Notes: a model not told the origin generated them from the sequence alone. Positions 1 to 11,709 are shown, numbered from the stretch's first letter. The stretch: 64,000 bases of DNA from an uncultured Pseudomonadales bacterium (GCA_943842505.1 CALTDI010000015.1:39901-103900); one strand, 5' to 3'. Made by a program: numbers and translations.

Positions 1-921
1 ACAGGCTTGGAAGAAGATCGCTATGTGAAGTCAGTCGAAGTCGTTGAAGTCAACGATGTAGACAATCAGGCAGGCACTGGCCGAGATACTGTTGGTGGCG
101 CCTATATCTTCCACCACATGATTTGGGGTACAGCCCAGCTTAACGAGAACGGCGAGCGTGATGGAAGCTTCTCCATTCCTTGGCCGGTTCACGAAGTCGG
201 CAGAAACGCTGACATCTTCGACGAAGATGCGGGTCGCCTGTTGAAGGCGGGTTCATCAATCGTTTCCGATTCCGTGCACTTGCACTCCAACGGACGTGAT
301 ACCACCGGTCACCTTGAGGTTGGTTTTCGTTTCCACCCTGAGGATTACAAGCCGAAATACCAGAATGCCTTCATCGGCCTGGGTAATGGCGTCGATATCA
401 GTATTACGGGTAACGAAAAGGACCAGGAGCTCCACGCCTACACGGTGCTTAATCAGCACACTAAGGTCATAACATTCGAGCCACACCTGCATGCTCCTGG
501 TGAGCGCATGTGTCTTGAGGCAATTTGGGGCTACACGGTAGAAACGCTTTCTTGCGTAGGCTACGACCACAACTGGGTGCGCGGCTATCCTTATGAAGAT
601 CACGCTGCTCCCCTGCTGCCTAAGGGCACTATCCTGCATATCGTTGGCTACATGAACAACACGGAGACTAATCCGAACGTTCCTGATCCGCGCAACTGGC
701 AGGGTTCTGGTAACCGCTCAGTAACGAATATGTTCATCGATCTGGGCATTCGCGTTACCTTAACGGATGATCAATTCTTCGAAGCTATGGAAGAGAGACG
801 TCAGGTACTGAATTTGGGACCAAATGACCATGTTATTGGTTGCCCACTATGCCTGGCTCCTCTAGTCGCTCCTATCGCCGAATCTGAAAGCGAAGAAGCG
901 AACGACGTAGCTGGCAACTAG
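1..921 (+). CDS. Copper type II ascorbate-dependent monooxygenase-like (PHM/DBM-like) protein, 5' partial at window edge
   Basis: Frame open from base 1. Motifs match the PHM copper ligand pattern: FHHMIWG (HH), HSNGRDTTGHLEVGFRF, FEPHLHAPGERM (HxH), YDHNWVRGYPYED...LPKGT, and a Met in RSVTNMFIDLG. Confidence 0.75.
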   Translation, partial: TGLEEDRYVKSVEVVEVNDVDNQAGTGRDTVGGAYIFHHMIWGTAQLNENGERDGSFSIPWPVHEVGRNADIFDEDAGRLLKAGSSIVSDSVHLHSNGRDTTGHLEVGFRFHPEDYKPKYQNAFIGLGNGVDISITGNEKDQELHAYTVLNQHTKVITFEPHLHAPGERMCLEAIWGYTVETLSCVGYDHNWVRGYPYEDHAAPLLPKGTILHIVGYMNNTETNPNVPDPRNWQGSGNRSVTNMFIDLGIRVTLTDDQFFEAMEERRQVLNLGPNDHVIGCPLCLAPLVAPIAESESEEANDVAGN

Positions 922-940
922 TCGAGGTTGTAGTAATAAG

Positions 941-1873
941 ATGAGTAAGTTAATTAGTAAATCAATCAGCAGGGTTAACGCCCTGCTGATTGCTGTTTTT
1001 ATAGTAGTCACATCGAGTGCAGCCCTTGCCGACACCTATCAGTTCGGACAGCACATCGAACCTGCCTATGAAGGCTGGCACCCGAATGCAGACGGCACGT
1101 TCAGCTTCATGTTTGGTTATATGAATGAGAACTGGACCGAGCAACCGGACGTCGCTGTTGGAGACAATAATTTTTTCTCTCCCGGTGATGCCGACAGAGG
1201 ACAACCAACCCATTTCTTGCCGCGCAGAAACCGCTTCACCTTTGAGGTAGTTGTACCTTCCGATTGGGGTGAACGCGAGCTGGTTTGGACGCTGAACGTA
1301 AATGGTGTTGAGCGTAAAGCTTATGCAACGCTGAAAGACGATTATCTGGTGGATAATATGGTCATCGCTTCCGAGACCGGTTCACTAGGTGCCGGCACCA
1401 GTAGTCCAGAGTCTCGTGCCAATATCCCGCCAGTAGTCACTATTCAGGGTGACGATATTCGCACTGCACGCGTCGGCGAAGAGATAAGCTTCGTCACTCA
1501 AGTAATTGACGACGGTTTGCCGAAAGCTAGACGAGAAAGCACTACGAGTGAGGACGCTCTCCAGAGACGCATGATGCGCCCCCCTACTCGCATTACCGTA
1601 GGGAAGGTGAACGGACTGTTCTTATCCTGGAACAAATATAGAGGTCCGGGCAATGTGACATTTGACCCTCCCATGCCCAAGCCTTGGGAAGACACTAGAA
1701 CATCTGCCAATTCTCCCTGGGGTGCACTCTGGTTACCACCAGAAGCGCCAGAGGATGGCCTGTATGAGGTAACCGCAACCTTCGATACACCAGGTACTTA
1801 TATTCTCTGGGGGCGTGCCGACGATGGTGGCCTTTATACCGATGGCTACATCACAGTGAATGTTACCGAGTAA
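941..1873 (+). CDS. Secreted protein of unknown function, paralog 1
   Basis: N-terminal signal peptide; long blocks identical to the next ORF (RGQPTHFLPRRNRFTFEVVVPSDWG, DNMVIASETGSLGAGTSSPESRANI, WEDTRTSANSPWGALW). Confidence 0.8.
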   Translation: MSKLISKSISRVNALLIAVFIVVTSSAALADTYQFGQHIEPAYEGWHPNADGTFSFMFGYMNENWTEQPDVAVGDNNFFSPGDADRGQPTHFLPRRNRFTFEVVVPSDWGERELVWTLNVNGVERKAYATLKDDYLVDNMVIASETGSLGAGTSSPESRANIPPVVTIQGDDIRTARVGEEISFVTQVIDDGLPKARRESTTSEDALQRRMMRPPTRITVGKVNGLFLSWNKYRGPGNVTFDPPMPKPWEDTRTSANSPWGALWLPPEAPEDGLYEVTATFDTPGTYILWGRADDGGLYTDGYITVNVTE

Positions 1874-1885
1874 TTAGTGAATTAT

Positions 1886-1912
1886 AAAAAGGGGCGTTAT
1901 TCGCCCCTTTTT
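1886..1912 (+). terminator. Rho-independent terminator, potentially bidirectional
   Basis: aaaaaGGGGCGttattCGCCCCttttt directly after the 941-1873 stop codon. Confidence 0.85.
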
Positions 1913-2044
1913 ATTGCCTGAAATTTGAATATTTCCGCAGGTGAAAATTTATTAAAACTGGTCTAGATAGAATTGATCAGAGGCAACGCTATAATCTTCT
2001 CAGTCGTTATGCTTAAAACACGTTATTACTAACTAATAAAAAAA

Positions 2045-3010
2045 TTGTGCCAGGGGAAAGACATGAACCATTATTCGAATAATAAGACAAAATGGCTAAC
2101 TGGGTTGCTTCTCTTCTCGGTACTGAGCACCCAGTCAGCAACGGCGCAGCTCAGCTATCGGACCGGCGCTGAGATCGAGCCAGGTTATGAAGGATGGCGT
2201 GCCAACGAAGATGGGACCTATACTCTTATTTTCGGATATATGAATGAGAATTGGGAAGAACAGCCTGACATTGAGGTCGGAGAAAGTAACTTCTTTACTC
2301 CCGGAGATGCCGACCGAGGACAACCTACACATTTTTTACCAAGGCGTAATCGGTTCACCTTTGAGGTAGTTGTGCCATCAGACTGGGGCGACCGTGAGCT
2401 AGTTTGGACACTAACTCACAATGGCGAAACCAACAGGGCCTATGGCACACTGACTACTGACTATCTGATCGATAATATGGTTATCGCCTCAGAGACCGGT
2501 TCTTTAGGCGCTGGAACTAGCAGCCCCGAATCCCGAGCCAATATTGCTCCCGTAGTCACCGTTCAGGGTGAAACGATGAATGGGGGCATTACGAGAAACG
2601 CAAAAGTCGGTGAAGAAATTATCATCACAACACATGTGGCCGATGATGGCTTGCCCAAGCCCCGCAGCACGACCTCTGCACGAACAAGTACATCGGTTCA
2701 GGAACGCATGATGCGACCACCACGCCGAACTACAGTAGGTAAAACTAACGGGCTGTTCCTATCTTGGAATAAGTACCGAGGCCCCGGCGAGGTTAGCTTC
2801 GAGCCAGCACAGGTAAAACCCTGGGAAGACACAAGAACTTCAGCAAACTCACCGTGGGGAGCTCTTTGGACCCCTCCTCCCATTCCAGAAGATGGCATCT
2901 ACGAAGTGAGGGCCACATTTTCAGAACCGGGCGAGTATGTGCTGTGGGCCCGAGGCGATGATGGCGGGCTTTATCACGATCAGCGCATCACGGTTAACGT
3001 AAGCCCTTAA
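2045..3010 (+). CDS. Secreted protein of unknown function, paralog 2 (true start may be the internal ATG MNHYSNN at 2063)
   Basis: Tandem paralog of 941-1873; signal peptide-like N-terminus after MNHYSNNKTKWLTGLLLFSVLS. Confidence 0.8.
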   Translation: MCQGKDMNHYSNNKTKWLTGLLLFSVLSTQSATAQLSYRTGAEIEPGYEGWRANEDGTYTLIFGYMNENWEEQPDIEVGESNFFTPGDADRGQPTHFLPRRNRFTFEVVVPSDWGDRELVWTLTHNGETNRAYGTLTTDYLIDNMVIASETGSLGAGTSSPESRANIAPVVTVQGETMNGGITRNAKVGEEIIITTHVADDGLPKPRSTTSARTSTSVQERMMRPPRRTTVGKTNGLFLSWNKYRGPGEVSFEPAQVKPWEDTRTSANSPWGALWTPPPIPEDGIYEVRATFSEPGEYVLWARGDDGGLYHDQRITVNVSP

Positions 3011-3013
3011 TAG

Positions 3014-3634
3014 CTAGCGCGGCGCGCTGGAGGAATCCTGCGATCGCTCCGCCTCTTCAGCCTCTAGCTTAATTGTGAAGGGAGGATCGTAGCGAGGTTT
3101 ATCCTGATTGAGGATGATATTCGTGCGCGGTGGCGTCACATAGCGAACATCGGAATCGGGCCCAGCGTTTTGCGTATCTACTAGCAGAGCTTCTGCAGCC
3201 TTTGTTAACGATGGGGCCTGCGCATCCGGCCCGAAGGAAAAGCTAAAACTCCCTCTGACTAAAAAGTCATTCTCGGCTAGAATCGCCCAGTCTGCCGTGT
3301 AATAGGTAGCTATATCGAGTTGCGGAACATCCCAAAAGAATTCCTCTTGTACCGTCGGATCGTAGCGAAAGCTAATATCCACCCAATCTCGTAACTCATT
3401 CCTAAGAGTCAATTTAACCAGTCGCACAGCGTAGGGAAACTCCAAACGCAGTCGCTCGGGAGCAGCCGCCAGGACACTGTCATCTGCGGGTGAGGTTTCT
3501 GTTTCGATGCTAATTACTGTAACATCTTCACCTTGAGCATAGAGGCCTCCAACAGGAGACTGAGCAATGGCAGAATGCCATAGCCCTAGACTCAGACAAG
3601 CTATACAGACTTTTTGGATTGAGTACGGATTCAA
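3014..3634 (-). CDS. CopC-like periplasmic domain protein lacking His ligands
   Basis: SPADDSVLAAAPERLRLEFPYAVRLVKLTL...YYTADWAILAENDFLVRGSFSFSFG follows the CopC pattern; signal peptide; the mature part has no histidine. Confidence 0.6.
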   Translation of the reverse strand: MNPYSIQKVCIACLSLGLWHSAIAQSPVGGLYAQGEDVTVISIETETSPADDSVLAAAPERLRLEFPYAVRLVKLTLRNELRDWVDISFRYDPTVQEEFFWDVPQLDIATYYTADWAILAENDFLVRGSFSFSFGPDAQAPSLTKAAEALLVDTQNAGPDSDVRYVTPPRTNIILNQDKPRYDPPFTIKLEAEEAERSQDSSSAPR

Positions 3635-3683
3635 TGCGCTTCCACTTTAGTCCCGCCATGGCGAAAATTTCAATTCTTGCGAT

Positions 3684-3719
3684 ACTTTCGCAACTTTCGC
3701 AACTTTCGCAACATTCGCG
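3684..3719. repeat. 9-bp tandem direct repeat (actttcgca x3 plus a degenerate fourth copy)
   Basis: Read directly: actttcgca-actttcgca-actttcgca-acattcgcg, in the divergent intergenic region. Confidence 0.9.
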
Positions 3720-3826
3720 CCTATTGCCACTTAAAACTGATGACGAAGAATAGCATCGCCGACCAAATTTGGGAAATGTGAAGATAGCCAGAATATGGGT
3801 ATAAGATAGAGGAAAGAAGGCCAATA

Positions 3827-4624
3827 ATGCAGGGAACAAACATAGATCTAATACTCGACGAGCTCGAGAATAGCAATTCCAACACCACACGGTTTAGCGA
3901 GAACTGGTCACAGGGTCGCTCAGCTTACGGTGGACTGGCGGCTGCATTTGCGGTAACCGCCATGAGAAAAAAACTAGCCCAAGCACAGACCATTCGTTCC
4001 CTAATGGTCTCTTTTATCGCACCGGTCGCTGCCGGCGAAGTTACGGTAGAGGCTTCTCTTCTTCGCCAGGGGAAGAACGTATCTCAGTGCAGTGCGAACG
4101 TAATATCACAGGGGCAGATTGCCCTTCAAGCCATGGCAGCTTTTGGTAATTCGCGCGAGGCCTTCGAGCCTCCCCGTCAAGCCATAAAGGAATTACCGGA
4201 CAGAAATAGCGGCATAGCTTTTAGCGACAACAGCAAACAGACGCCCCATTTCTTGCAGTACTTCGATGGCTGCTGGATTGGTGGTGGCATACCCTTCTCC
4301 GGTAACTACAAGCCGTTTCTAAATCTATGGGTTCGGCACAAGCAAGATGTTTCCCGCTTTCCTGTAGAGAAGCTGTTAGCGATAGCCGATATTCCGCCAC
4401 CGGTACTGCTATCTCATTTTGATAAACCTCCCGTCCCGGCAAGCTCGCTGAGCTGGTCCTTAGAATTTATAGAGGCGCCGGAGTCGATAAGCAGTGAATG
4501 GTTCTATATGGAATTCGAAGTCGATGCTGCGGCAGATGGCTATACGCAGCAATCCGGCAAGATATACGACGAGTCAGGCCGATTGATAGCACTAACCCGG
4601 CAGTGCATGGTCTATTTCGGCTGA
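3827..4624 (+). CDS. Acyl-CoA thioesterase family protein (TesB-like double hotdog)
   Basis: SQGRSAYGGLAAAFAVTAM...SLMVSFIAPVAAGEVTVEASLLRQGKNVSQCSANVISQGQIALQAMAAFG. Confidence 0.75.
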   Translation: MQGTNIDLILDELENSNSNTTRFSENWSQGRSAYGGLAAAFAVTAMRKKLAQAQTIRSLMVSFIAPVAAGEVTVEASLLRQGKNVSQCSANVISQGQIALQAMAAFGNSREAFEPPRQAIKELPDRNSGIAFSDNSKQTPHFLQYFDGCWIGGGIPFSGNYKPFLNLWVRHKQDVSRFPVEKLLAIADIPPPVLLSHFDKPPVPASSLSWSLEFIEAPESISSEWFYMEFEVDAAADGYTQQSGKIYDESGRLIALTRQCMVYFG

Positions 4625-4735
4625 TTTAGTCAGCGACCTTCCTAACTCCCTGGATTCGCTAAGGCGACAGCAAGATAGAGAGTAGCGCAGGTTTTTGTTA
4701 GAATTTAGCCTTTGGGAGAATAGCGAGGTGACAAG

Positions 4736-5236
4736 TTGATAAGCATGAATACACTTCAACGAAAAGTGAGTCTACTCGTCCTTGGCGCGTTGCTGGGCTT
4801 GCTGTCCTCTACCAATTCATTAGCGCAGCATAGCCATGGCGTTCTAACTCCTGGCGTAACCTTTCCCCCGGACGATTCTGTACTAACCGAACCTCCACAA
4901 ATGATCACTATGAGTTTTCGGGTAGACGTGCGGCTGCTAAAGCTCGCGCTGTATACCGCGGAAGATGAATGGATCAATATCGACTTTCAATACGACCCTT
5001 CACGATTTAGTCACAGCTTCGTCTTGCCGATACCGGGAGAACTACCCAAATCGGAATACTATATCGCTCGCTGGTCAGTAACAGATGATAGAAGAGGATT
5101 GGTGAATGGTGAGTTTACATTCGCCTTCGGTTCCGGCGCTATACCCCCATCCGAGACGATCGCATCTAAAGTGAGCGATCGCGTTGAGATTCTGCCCTCT
5201 ACCGGCTCCTATCGCTATCAACGGCCCACTAACTAA
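4736..5236 (+). CDS. CopC-like periplasmic domain protein, second atypical copy
   Basis: FPPDDSVLTEPPQMITMSFRVDVRLLKLALYTAEDEWINIDFQYDPS...YYIARWSVTDDRRGLVNGEFTFAFG; signal peptide. Confidence 0.6.
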   Translation: MISMNTLQRKVSLLVLGALLGLLSSTNSLAQHSHGVLTPGVTFPPDDSVLTEPPQMITMSFRVDVRLLKLALYTAEDEWINIDFQYDPSRFSHSFVLPIPGELPKSEYYIARWSVTDDRRGLVNGEFTFAFGSGAIPPSETIASKVSDRVEILPSTGSYRYQRPTN

Positions 5237-5287: not shown

Positions 5288-6025
5288 CTAGCGGAACTTG
5301 AAGCCCTGCCCCTCAAGAAAACCTTTCATGTGTGGTCTGGCCTTCTCAGAGAGAAGTGAGGACACCTGCTCGGTCCAGCTAATTCCATGCCCTCCTCCTG
5401 TCCTGGTCTTGTAGTATTCGCGAATATGCTCGTCATATTCCGAGATAGCCTCTCTATCCCCTACTTCGTTATAGACCTCTTCCTTTAGTATTACCGATAG
5501 AGGAAGCCTAGGCTTGACCTCAGGATCCTGGTCTGGATAGCCGAGGCACAGGCCAAAGACGGGGTAGACCCCCTTAGGTAGCTCAAGCAATTCGGATACT
5601 TGGGCCGGGTCATTCCTGATCCCCCCGATATAACAGATTCCCAAACCCACCGATTCGGCCGCCGCCACCATGCTCTGCGCCATTAAGGCAACGTCTACAG
5701 TAGCGATAATAAAATGTTCCGTATAATCACCTTCGAATGATTTCTCATACTCTGCACAATAATTTCCTGGCCGCTTCAAGTCTGCACAGAAAATCATGAA
5801 CTCGGCAGCCGATTCAACATAGCTCTGGCCACCCGCCAGCTTGGCGATCGCGCTTCTGGTTTCTGCCTTCTTTATTCTAACCACCGTAGAACCCTGCAAA
5901 AAACTTGAGGTCGCGGCGGCCTGACCCGCAGTTATGAGGTCAGCAAATAGCTCCGGCTCAATAGCCTGATTGGTAAATTTTCGAATACTGCGGTGGGACT
6001 TCAGCAAGTCAATCACTGAGCTCAT
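5288..6025 (-). CDS. nfsA: Oxygen-insensitive NADPH nitroreductase, NfsA family
   Basis: DLLKSHRSIRKFTNQAIEPE...GLGICYIGGIRNDPAQVSELLELPKGVYPVFGLCLGYPDQDPEVKPRLPLSVILKEEVYN. Confidence 0.85.
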   Translation of the reverse strand: MSSVIDLLKSHRSIRKFTNQAIEPELFADLITAGQAAATSSFLQGSTVVRIKKAETRSAIAKLAGGQSYVESAAEFMIFCADLKRPGNYCAEYEKSFEGDYTEHFIIATVDVALMAQSMVAAAESVGLGICYIGGIRNDPAQVSELLELPKGVYPVFGLCLGYPDQDPEVKPRLPLSVILKEEVYNEVGDREAISEYDEHIREYYKTRTGGGHGISWTEQVSSLLSEKARPHMKGFLEGQGFKFR

Positions 6026-10348: not shown

Positions 10349-11275
10349 CTACATCTGATGGCTGGCGGGGCCCACGACCGTCGAAAGATACGATGTGACT
10401 ATCAGAATTGCCGCAGCAATCGCTAGCTCCACACGAATCGAAGTTTGTAGCCGCGAGATACTCCCACTAGCAAGCATCGAAGGCACCAAAACAAGTTTAT
10501 TGATAGCGGCGACCGCTAGAATAGCAGCGACTAGAACCAGCTTAACTAGCAAGACCACGCCGTAGCCAGTTTTTATCAAGTCGAAAGGCGAGTCTAACAA
10601 CTCCCACGACATCAATATGCCTGCCAGAAAGAGTATCGAGAGGATGGCGATAGCATTATCACCAAAGCGCTTAAGCGTCTTCTGCAATGTTTCCAGGCTT
10701 GTGCTCTTGCTCAATTGCAAAAATGGATAGAGACAACCGATCCATAGAGCGAAGGCTATAAAGTGCAGCATTATGGAAGTCTGAGCCACAATACTTAATA
10801 CGGAAACATGACCGCTTACCCGATGAGAAAAGGCCAATATGATCAGAGCCGCGAACTGAATTGTAAATAGAAACCGCGCCAAAAGAACGGATAGCTTACC
10901 ATCCGTATACTGCAGCTTCTTAAGAAAGACTACACTTGCCCCCCCTGCCAATATAAAGGCTAGCAGCCTGAACAAGGTGACATCACCGAGACTGGTGTCC
11001 AACAAAATAGAGGCCATCCCCCAGTCAAACATTCCCCCTACACCACTGTCGTTTATCAAACCAACCTGCACGAGAAAGCCGAGCAGAACCCCGTGAAAAC
11101 CGACAACTGCGCCGACAAAGACAGTGGAAAAATTGGAGAATAGCGTTGCCCTGCTTCCATTGGAATAACGCAAAGCAGCTAGACTGCCTCCAGCTATACT
11201 GAAGGCAGCAAAGTAGAGGAGAAGTTTGGCTAGAAGGCTTGCCATCTCCCAATTGTCAGGGAGTGAAAACATCAA
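10349..11275 (-). CDS. copD: Copper resistance CopD family membrane protein
   Basis: Multi-TM; HFIAFALWIGCLYPFLQL, FGDNAIAILSILFLAGILMSW, GYGVVLLVKLVLVAAILAVAAINK; directly downstream of copC. Confidence 0.85.
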   Translation of the reverse strand: MMFSLPDNWEMASLLAKLLLYFAAFSIAGGSLAALRYSNGSRATLFSNFSTVFVGAVVGFHGVLLGFLVQVGLINDSGVGGMFDWGMASILLDTSLGDVTLFRLLAFILAGGASVVFLKKLQYTDGKLSVLLARFLFTIQFAALIILAFSHRVSGHVSVLSIVAQTSIMLHFIAFALWIGCLYPFLQLSKSTSLETLQKTLKRFGDNAIAILSILFLAGILMSWELLDSPFDLIKTGYGVVLLVKLVLVAAILAVAAINKLVLVPSMLASGSISRLQTSIRVELAIAAAILIVTSYLSTVVGPASHQM

Positions 11276-11289
11276 GCGCTCCGATTCAG

Positions 11290-11709
11290 CTAGTGCCCGT
11301 GGCTCGCGGCTTCGCCGGAATGATCTTCGGCCGCCGACGGGTCAACAGTAAAACTGTAACTATCTGCTACCGTGTGGCCGTCTGCACCGATGACCGCCCA
11401 GTTAACGGTGAACGCACCTGGATGCATGCCGGGGGTTTCAATCATGAATGTGGCTTTAGGCTCGCTGTTACTCTCAAAATTAGTTGGCATTTCGTGGCCC
11501 ACACCCATCAGCTCCAACTTAACCAGTTTCACCGGCCCATTGAAGCTCAGGTTAATATGTCCTGGTGCCTCCCTAATTATCGCACCGTCAGCTGGAGCGG
11601 CCTCTTTCAATGCCGTATGAGCGAAGGCAGTAGTGGAAACTAGTAGCGTGAAAACAGCGCAGGCAATGACGCGTGATGCCGACCGAAGAGACGATTGAGA
11701 ATGTTTCAT
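11290..11709 (-). CDS. copC: Copper resistance protein CopC
   Basis: Mature N-terminus HTALKEAAPADGAIIREAPGHINLSF; NWAVIGADGHTVADSYSFTV; His-rich tail. Confidence 0.9.
   Translation of the reverse strand: MKHSQSSLRSASRVIACAVFTLLVSTTAFAHTALKEAAPADGAIIREAPGHINLSFNGPVKLVKLELMGVGHEMPTNFESNSEPKATFMIETPGMHPGAFTVNWAVIGADGHTVADSYSFTVDPSAAEDHSGEAASHGH

Follow-up and report, generated by a model that had tools for sequence, protein, structure and literature searches.

A predicted heme c-fused, PHM-type copper monooxygenase in a marine bacterial family, beside a putative partner protein, and in T4-like phages

We analysed a stretch of 64,000 nucleotides (the window) from an uncultured Pseudomonadales bacterium, which comprises bases 39901-103900 of contig C15 in a genome of 3.25 Mb. 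The left edge of the window carries the 3′ part of a gene, here named F0, whose predicted product joins a c-type heme domain to a domain akin to the copper enzymes PHM and dopamine beta-hydroxylase (DBH). It is followed by two copies of a gene for a putative partner protein, F1. The features of this region are listed below.

1-921, plus strand: F0, 3′ part (306 codons) of a heme c/PHM-like gene; the complete gene is L009:6383-7822
941-1873, plus strand: F1a, putative secreted partner protein with two predicted immunoglobulin (Ig)-like domains; starts 19 nt past F0
963-992, plus strand: RNA stem-loop of 13 pairs within the signal-peptide codons of F1a, with covariation and a T run after it
2045-3010, plus strand: F1b, second copy of the putative partner protein; likely ATG at 2063
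3014-3634, minus strand: CopCa, CopC-fold protein; Pfam 28.6 bits against a cutoff of 23.3
3827-4624, plus strand: acyl-CoA thioesterase; 4HBT_3/4HBT_3C match
4736-5236, plus strand: CopCb, CopC-fold protein; Pfam CopC above cutoff; likely ATG at 4745
5288-6025, minus strand: nitroreductase-family protein; right edge of the syntenic block
10349-11275, minus strand: CopD
11290-11709, minus strand: canonical CopC, with an N-terminal His past the predicted signal peptide and a DGH motif

A preliminary description of the window had pointed to two secreted paralogs in the same direction, two CopC-fold-like proteins around a thioesterase and a canonical copC-copD further on. All of these were recovered: F1a and F1b are 67% identical and lie on the same strand as F0, CopCa, which is encoded on the minus strand, and CopCb both exceed the Pfam CopC cutoff, and CopD and CopC occupy 10349-11709. 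The description had also proposed extension upstream, which yielded the whole first gene. It encodes 479 amino acids, starts 519 bases upstream of the window and consists, in order, of a signal peptide, a mono-heme c-type domain and the PHM/DBH-like domain. The heme domain lies outside the window and hence was invisible from the window sequence alone. Its motif is C46-x-x-C49-H50, and the Met of an invariant MPP motif is found at position 86. CxxCH and this axial-type Met are invariant in 18 paralogs of the same genome, in 46 non-redundant close relatives and in 113 phage copies. Pfam and NCBIfam searches with the window F0 gave weak heme-domain matches only, below the Pfam cutoff, and the single protein searched against PDB matched the hydrazine synthase heme domain alone.

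The PHM-style ligand series that the preliminary description had read in the left-edge protein (HH, H, HxH, Met) corresponds to H211 H212, H266, H335xH337 and M417 in full-protein numbering, and all of these residues are invariant across the 46 relatives. A catalytic-domain profile of the 18 paralogs matched human DBH in PDB (4zel, E 0.0011). Its six copper-ligand columns aligned with H223, H224, H294, H373, H375 and M448 of the chain; with an offset of 39 these become H262, H263, H333, H412, H414 and M487, the known copper ligands of DBH. The Cu2_monoox_C family was matched by 8 of the 18 paralogs at E below 0.1 (best 7.2e-7), and two long-type paralogs passed the curated cutoff of PF03712. 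An AlphaFold model of F0 was built from the alignment of the 46 relatives, and its predicted local distance difference test (pLDDT) score was 70-90 over much of the catalytic part. In a Foldseek search with this model, ranks 1-28 were all PHM or DBH, with a best E of 2.0e-6, which supports a predicted PHM fold of two jelly-roll domains. Three independent lines, namely the model fold, the paralog profile and the Cu2_monoox_C matches of the paralogs, identify F0 as a predicted PHM-type protein despite the Pfam miss of the window copy.

PHM has a substrate-binding Arg two residues before HxH. At this place the window type has Glu, the residue varies among the paralogs and no Arg is conserved, which argues against peptidylglycine as a likely substrate of F0. 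Bacterial peptide amidation by a PHM together with a PAL-like NHL propeller might be suggested by the PHM-type site and by the NHL-propeller genes near some paralogs (L014, L018, L019), which have PAL among their matches. However, for these NHL proteins TRIM-type NHL repeats give better matches than PAL does, and the window locus contains no PAL-like or NHL gene. As the NHL neighbours are not PAL-specific, peptide amidation was rejected, and we consider it hardly credible.

The 18 F0-type genes of this genome are 21-80% identical to one another and fall into 11 short and 7 long ones. The short type has a signal peptide, heme c and PHM domains, and the long type adds an N-terminal thioredoxin-like domain. 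In the long-type paralogs at L015, L016, L019, L020 and L021 this thioredoxin/AhpC-like domain has no CxxC motif, and no F1 adjoins them. All ligands are retained in 16 of the 18 paralogs. In the remaining two (L016:9064-10917 and L021:4304-5992) RMN replaces HxH, while the CuH site and the heme motif are kept; a change of function in these two is possible. Most paralogs have no copper-homeostasis genes adjoining them. Genes for pyrroloquinoline quinone (PQQ) dehydrogenases, one with its own cytochrome c domain, adjoin F0-F1 pairs at L013:1713-3383, L014:1237-3348 and L014:5649-7847. These PQQ alcohol dehydrogenases near L013 and L014 could further oxidise the alcohols that F0 would form.

All 19 sampled genomes of the genus, including the window's own, gave 11-31 F0 matches each, a few of which possibly represent the heme domain alone. 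Ten genomes that represent other families in the order gave no F0 match. Among 275 genomes sampled across the class, only the window's own had window-type F0, and F1 was likewise found nowhere else; in a phylum-wide sample of 398 genomes, clear relatives were present in two further genomes only. The named relatives are marine and freshwater metagenome-assembled genomes (MAGs) labelled Pseudohongiella, OM182 or Pseudomonadales, and these labels fit the family Pseudohongiellaceae.

F1 follows F0 closely. In 72 of 79 loci (among 80 named loci) the gene that comes next on the strand of F0 is F1, mostly with a gap of 2-36 nt, and some of the 7 exceptions are contig ends. Of 59 genomes sampled from the family, 39 had both F1 and window-type F0 and the other 20 had neither. 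The F1 family has nine members in the window's genome, where 8 of the 11 short-type F0 genes have an adjoining F1, and these eight F0-F1 pairs sit in different genomic contexts. Across the eight pairs, the pairwise identities of F0 and those of F1 correlate with an r of 0.97, a value reached by 6 of 40,320 permutations, the correlation being largely driven by one group of close pairs. The correlation indicates that the pairs were duplicated as units. The predicted fold of F1 consists of two Ig-like sandwiches. Neither F0 nor F1 was present in a plasmid search, and F1 was missing from viral contigs and from the flanks of phage F0. From this pairing, F1 is predicted to be a dedicated partner of F0.

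The F0-F1a junction carries a further element, the terminator-like 13-pair hairpin that overlaps the codons for the F1a signal peptide. Measured against shuffles of synonymous codons, folding was better than z -2 in 27 of 37 window-type loci, as compared with 5 of 35 other F0-F1 junctions. In an alignment of 24 sequences, which were picked for clear hairpins, 91.9% of cells pair and 11 of the 13 pairs have changed on both sides in a compensatory manner. No shuffle attained the observed values, and sliding the partner lowered the pairing to 27-55%. RNAalifold recovered the same 13-pair stem, and no Rfam family matched it. The T run 3′ of the hairpin is found in the window and its nearest relatives, not in all loci. 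The hairpin probably sets the F0:F1 ratio, either by attenuation or through mRNA stability. About 30 related loci have a hairpin in the corresponding place. A second F0-F1 locus (L010, L070-L102), equally conserved, lies between pnp/truB-like and relA-like genes, names that were assigned by position and size; the hairpin is absent from it.

The block SURF1-F0-F1-(F1)-CopCa-thioesterase-CopCb-nitroreductase is kept in about 40 MAGs. No signal peptide was seen by eye in the thioesterase, which is therefore probably cytoplasmic, and it is perhaps functionally unrelated to the system although syntenic with it. CopCa and CopCb belong to the syntenic window-type locus, and at L011 a third CopC-like gene was found after an F0-F1 pair. 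CopCa, CopCb and their relatives are without the D-x-H copper site of CopC, which is present in the canonical CopC at 11290-11709. In CopCa, no His is conserved across the 38 aligned minus-strand F4 proteins. CopCb has QHxHG immediately after its predicted signal peptide, with the first His kept in 32 of 32 sequences and the second in 30 of 32. Both are thus predicted to be CopC-fold proteins that do not possess the CopC copper site, and CopCb may bind copper by another mode.

These neighbours bear on copper tolerance as an explanation, in which the fusion would be a periplasmic Cu(I) oxidase or Cu(II) reductase, served by F1 and the CopC-like proteins as copper chaperones. The CopC-fold neighbours and copC-copD within 6 kb would agree with this, and the cytochrome domain could pass electrons in either direction. 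But the CopC-like proteins are without the CopC copper site and present at some loci only; among the seven other F0-F1 pairs, a CopC-like neighbour occurs only at L011. Moreover, 11-31 matches per genome are hard to explain by detoxification, and we regard copper tolerance as quite improbable.

F0 was also found in T4-like marine phages. Searching IMG/VR with the alignment of the short type gave at least 141 contigs encoding full-length relatives, and 80 of these loci (L171-L250) were retrieved for inspection. Two types were recognised: type A is 68-77% identical to the tandem genes at L016, and type B is 49-55% identical to the long-type gene at L020 and, unlike it, has no thioredoxin domain. 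A is followed by B in 34 of the retrieved loci, and in several a small exported c-type cytochrome is encoded between them (examples of phage loci are L171:1648-6275, L173:2689-6584 and L177:3074-5962). All ten heme and copper residues are retained in 113 of 113 complete phage copies. On the contigs inspected, neighbouring genes encode the T4-type head protease gp21, scaffold gp22 and major head protein gp23 (E 2.5e-84, 3e-70 and 1.3e-160). On other contigs the neighbours are the gp32 single-strand DNA-binding protein, UvsX, SbcC/SbcD-like gp46/47, a UvsW-like helicase, tail tube, primase and tail fibre. T4-type PHROG matches were established in five contigs, and gp23 homologues in 19 of the 80 retrieved loci. 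Because the flanking T4-like genes differ between contigs, the copies are evidently inserted at several different points. No match to type A or type B was found in 50,697 GenBank phage records, and type A has no PHROG family.

In the tree, 38 type-A phage sequences grouped with three Pseudohongiellaceae genes (support 0.99) and a further 14 with three other genes (support 0.95), while type B was sister to the L020 gene of the window genome (support 0.995). Since the two phage clades are placed with separate Pseudohongiellaceae genes, it is likely that phages captured type A at least twice from this lineage. Bacterial relatives within the window's genus reach 77% identity, and these phages probably infect members of the family. 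As no F1 adjoins the phage copies, F1 would either be supplied by the host or be unneeded by types A and B. Window-type F0 was represented in viral contigs by a single putative viral contig, at 72% identity. On L266, a 7-kb contig in a MAG of a genus otherwise without the system, a broken type-A gene precedes a type-B gene in the phage-like order; the contig may be phage DNA binned with the wrong genome, or else point to bacteria as a source of the A-B pair. On L213, a putative viral contig of 339,794 bases in IMG/VR, the A and B genes adjoin curlin-like repeat proteins.

The phage copies could alternatively be functionless host DNA, mis-assembled or packaged by chance. They are highly identical to host genes (68-77%), and the contigs are metagenomic with no counterpart in cultured-phage records. 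Yet they are flanked by T4-like genes for structure and replication at several different insertion points, make up two clades, of 38 and 14 members, that contain phage sequences only, and keep all ten cofactor residues throughout, so we consider chance carriage very improbable.

Drawing on what the computation shows of the domain architecture, the conserved ligands, the kinship of the fold, the F0-F1 pairing, the family expansion, the covarying RNA and the phage context, the best explanation, which we consider probable, is that F0 is an exported, heme c-reduced copper monooxygenase with an F1 partner, a ratio-setting hairpin and a history of phage capture. Loaded with heme and copper, F0 would accept single electrons from the periplasmic cytochrome pool at its mono-heme c-type domain (His/Met ligated) and hand them one at a time to the copper pair, CuH (HH and H) and CuM (HxH and M). 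CuM would be where O2 is activated, and a small substrate would be hydroxylated at a C-H bond. Because F0 is a heme c/PHM fusion, its likely reductant is the cytochrome pool and not ascorbate, for which the heme domain would substitute. F1 would most likely serve in substrate presentation, docking or assembly, and the paralogous F0-F1 pairs, duplicated as units, would cover different substrate ranges. The F1a hairpin would adjust the F0:F1 ratio, and T4-like phages would have taken up two F0 types, sometimes with the small cytochrome, as auxiliary metabolic genes.

Several observations weigh against this explanation. The window F0, even when complete, gave no Pfam copper-monooxygenase match (PF01082/PF03712). 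The preliminary description had counted such a miss against its own proposal; the homology is carried instead by the paralog profiles and the fold. The F0 model is modest, with a mean pLDDT of 56 and below 50 in the heme part, and its TM-scores against PHM are low (0.3-0.5); the fold kinship therefore counts mainly jointly with the ligand alignment. A fold search with the F1 model yielded generic Ig-like matches only, and synteny across close relatives is not independent evidence. In addition, two long paralogs have lost the HxH of CuM, and therefore not every family member can be an oxygenase. The last point would suit a protein that binds copper and heme without being an oxygenase, that is, a periplasmic electron-transfer or copper/redox-sensing protein on a PHM scaffold, as would the retention of CuH in the same two paralogs and the position of the window locus near copC-copD with its CopC-fold proteins. 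However, both copper sites are invariant in the other 16 divergent paralogs, in the 46 relatives and in every complete phage copy. A full CuM set is unnecessary for a sensor or carrier, and most paralogs are without copper-homeostasis neighbours. We consider an electron-transfer or sensing role unlikely, and the monooxygenase remains our preferred explanation.

The copper oxidative system with accessory proteins that had been proposed for the window thus stands in part. The monooxygenase-type protein and the recurrence of F1 with F0 are upheld. The CopC-like genes recur as syntenic members of the window-type locus and as one copy at L011, and a copper role for their products is not borne out so far, given the missing D-x-H site. 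The enzyme is now read as a predicted heme c/PHM fusion and as one of 18 paralogs, and "uncharacterised copper-dependent oxidative system" would still be a fair wording. We see about an even chance for a wider proposal: that a hitherto undescribed heme-wired PHM-type class, with its partner and ratio hairpin, has expanded into a periplasmic oxidation toolkit of one marine family and was captured at least twice by T4-like phages, which would use it to drive the same reaction in infection.

Numbering about twenty copies per genome, at 11-31 matches each, in bacteria that are common in the sea, this family would represent a large unexplored capacity for oxidising dissolved organic matter. The enzyme would couple a heme domain that carries electrons to the kind of copper centre known from the animal peptide- and dopamine-hydroxylating enzymes, and this makes it a simple model for experiments on how electrons are delivered to two distant coppers. 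The intact phage copies, cytochrome included, suggest a reaction worth controlling in infection and a route to the substrate; phages may steer an oxidation within the host cell.

PHM/DBH-type enzymes are familiar from studies in animals, where ascorbate is the reductant. F0 shares with them (PF01082/PF03712) the six copper ligands in the same order and at similar spacing, and they are its best fold match. It differs in being fused to a c-type heme domain, in occurring in bacteria and phages with a predicted dedicated F1 partner, in the absence of a Pfam match for the window copy, in having no conserved peptide-binding Arg, and in its 18 paralogs of 21-80% identity. As in c-type cytochromes of the Cytochrome_CBB3 or Haem_bd type, CxxCH and a downstream MPP methionine are invariant, but the domain of the window F0 scores under the Pfam cutoff and serves as the N-terminal domain of a predicted copper protein. 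CopCa and CopCb pass the cutoff of CopC (PF04234) but are without its D-x-H, and CopCb begins with QHxHG instead. For the phage copies, the nearest precedent is phage-borne pmoC, a subunit of an unrelated copper monooxygenase (PMC7674155). Like phage pmoC and viral amoC, phage F0 would be a case of host copper-monooxygenase genes carried as auxiliary metabolic genes. Those are membrane subunits of pMMO/AMO, whereas phage F0 would be a whole exported enzyme of an unrelated copper family, often paired and, unlike them, with its own electron-transfer domain. Neither a bacterial heme-PHM fusion nor such phage genes were described in the open-access literature searched, which leaves most subscription papers outside. 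The family-level kinship to PHM/DBH chemistry is known; no paper found in that literature describes the heme c fusion, its F1 partner and expansion, the RNA element or the phage copies.

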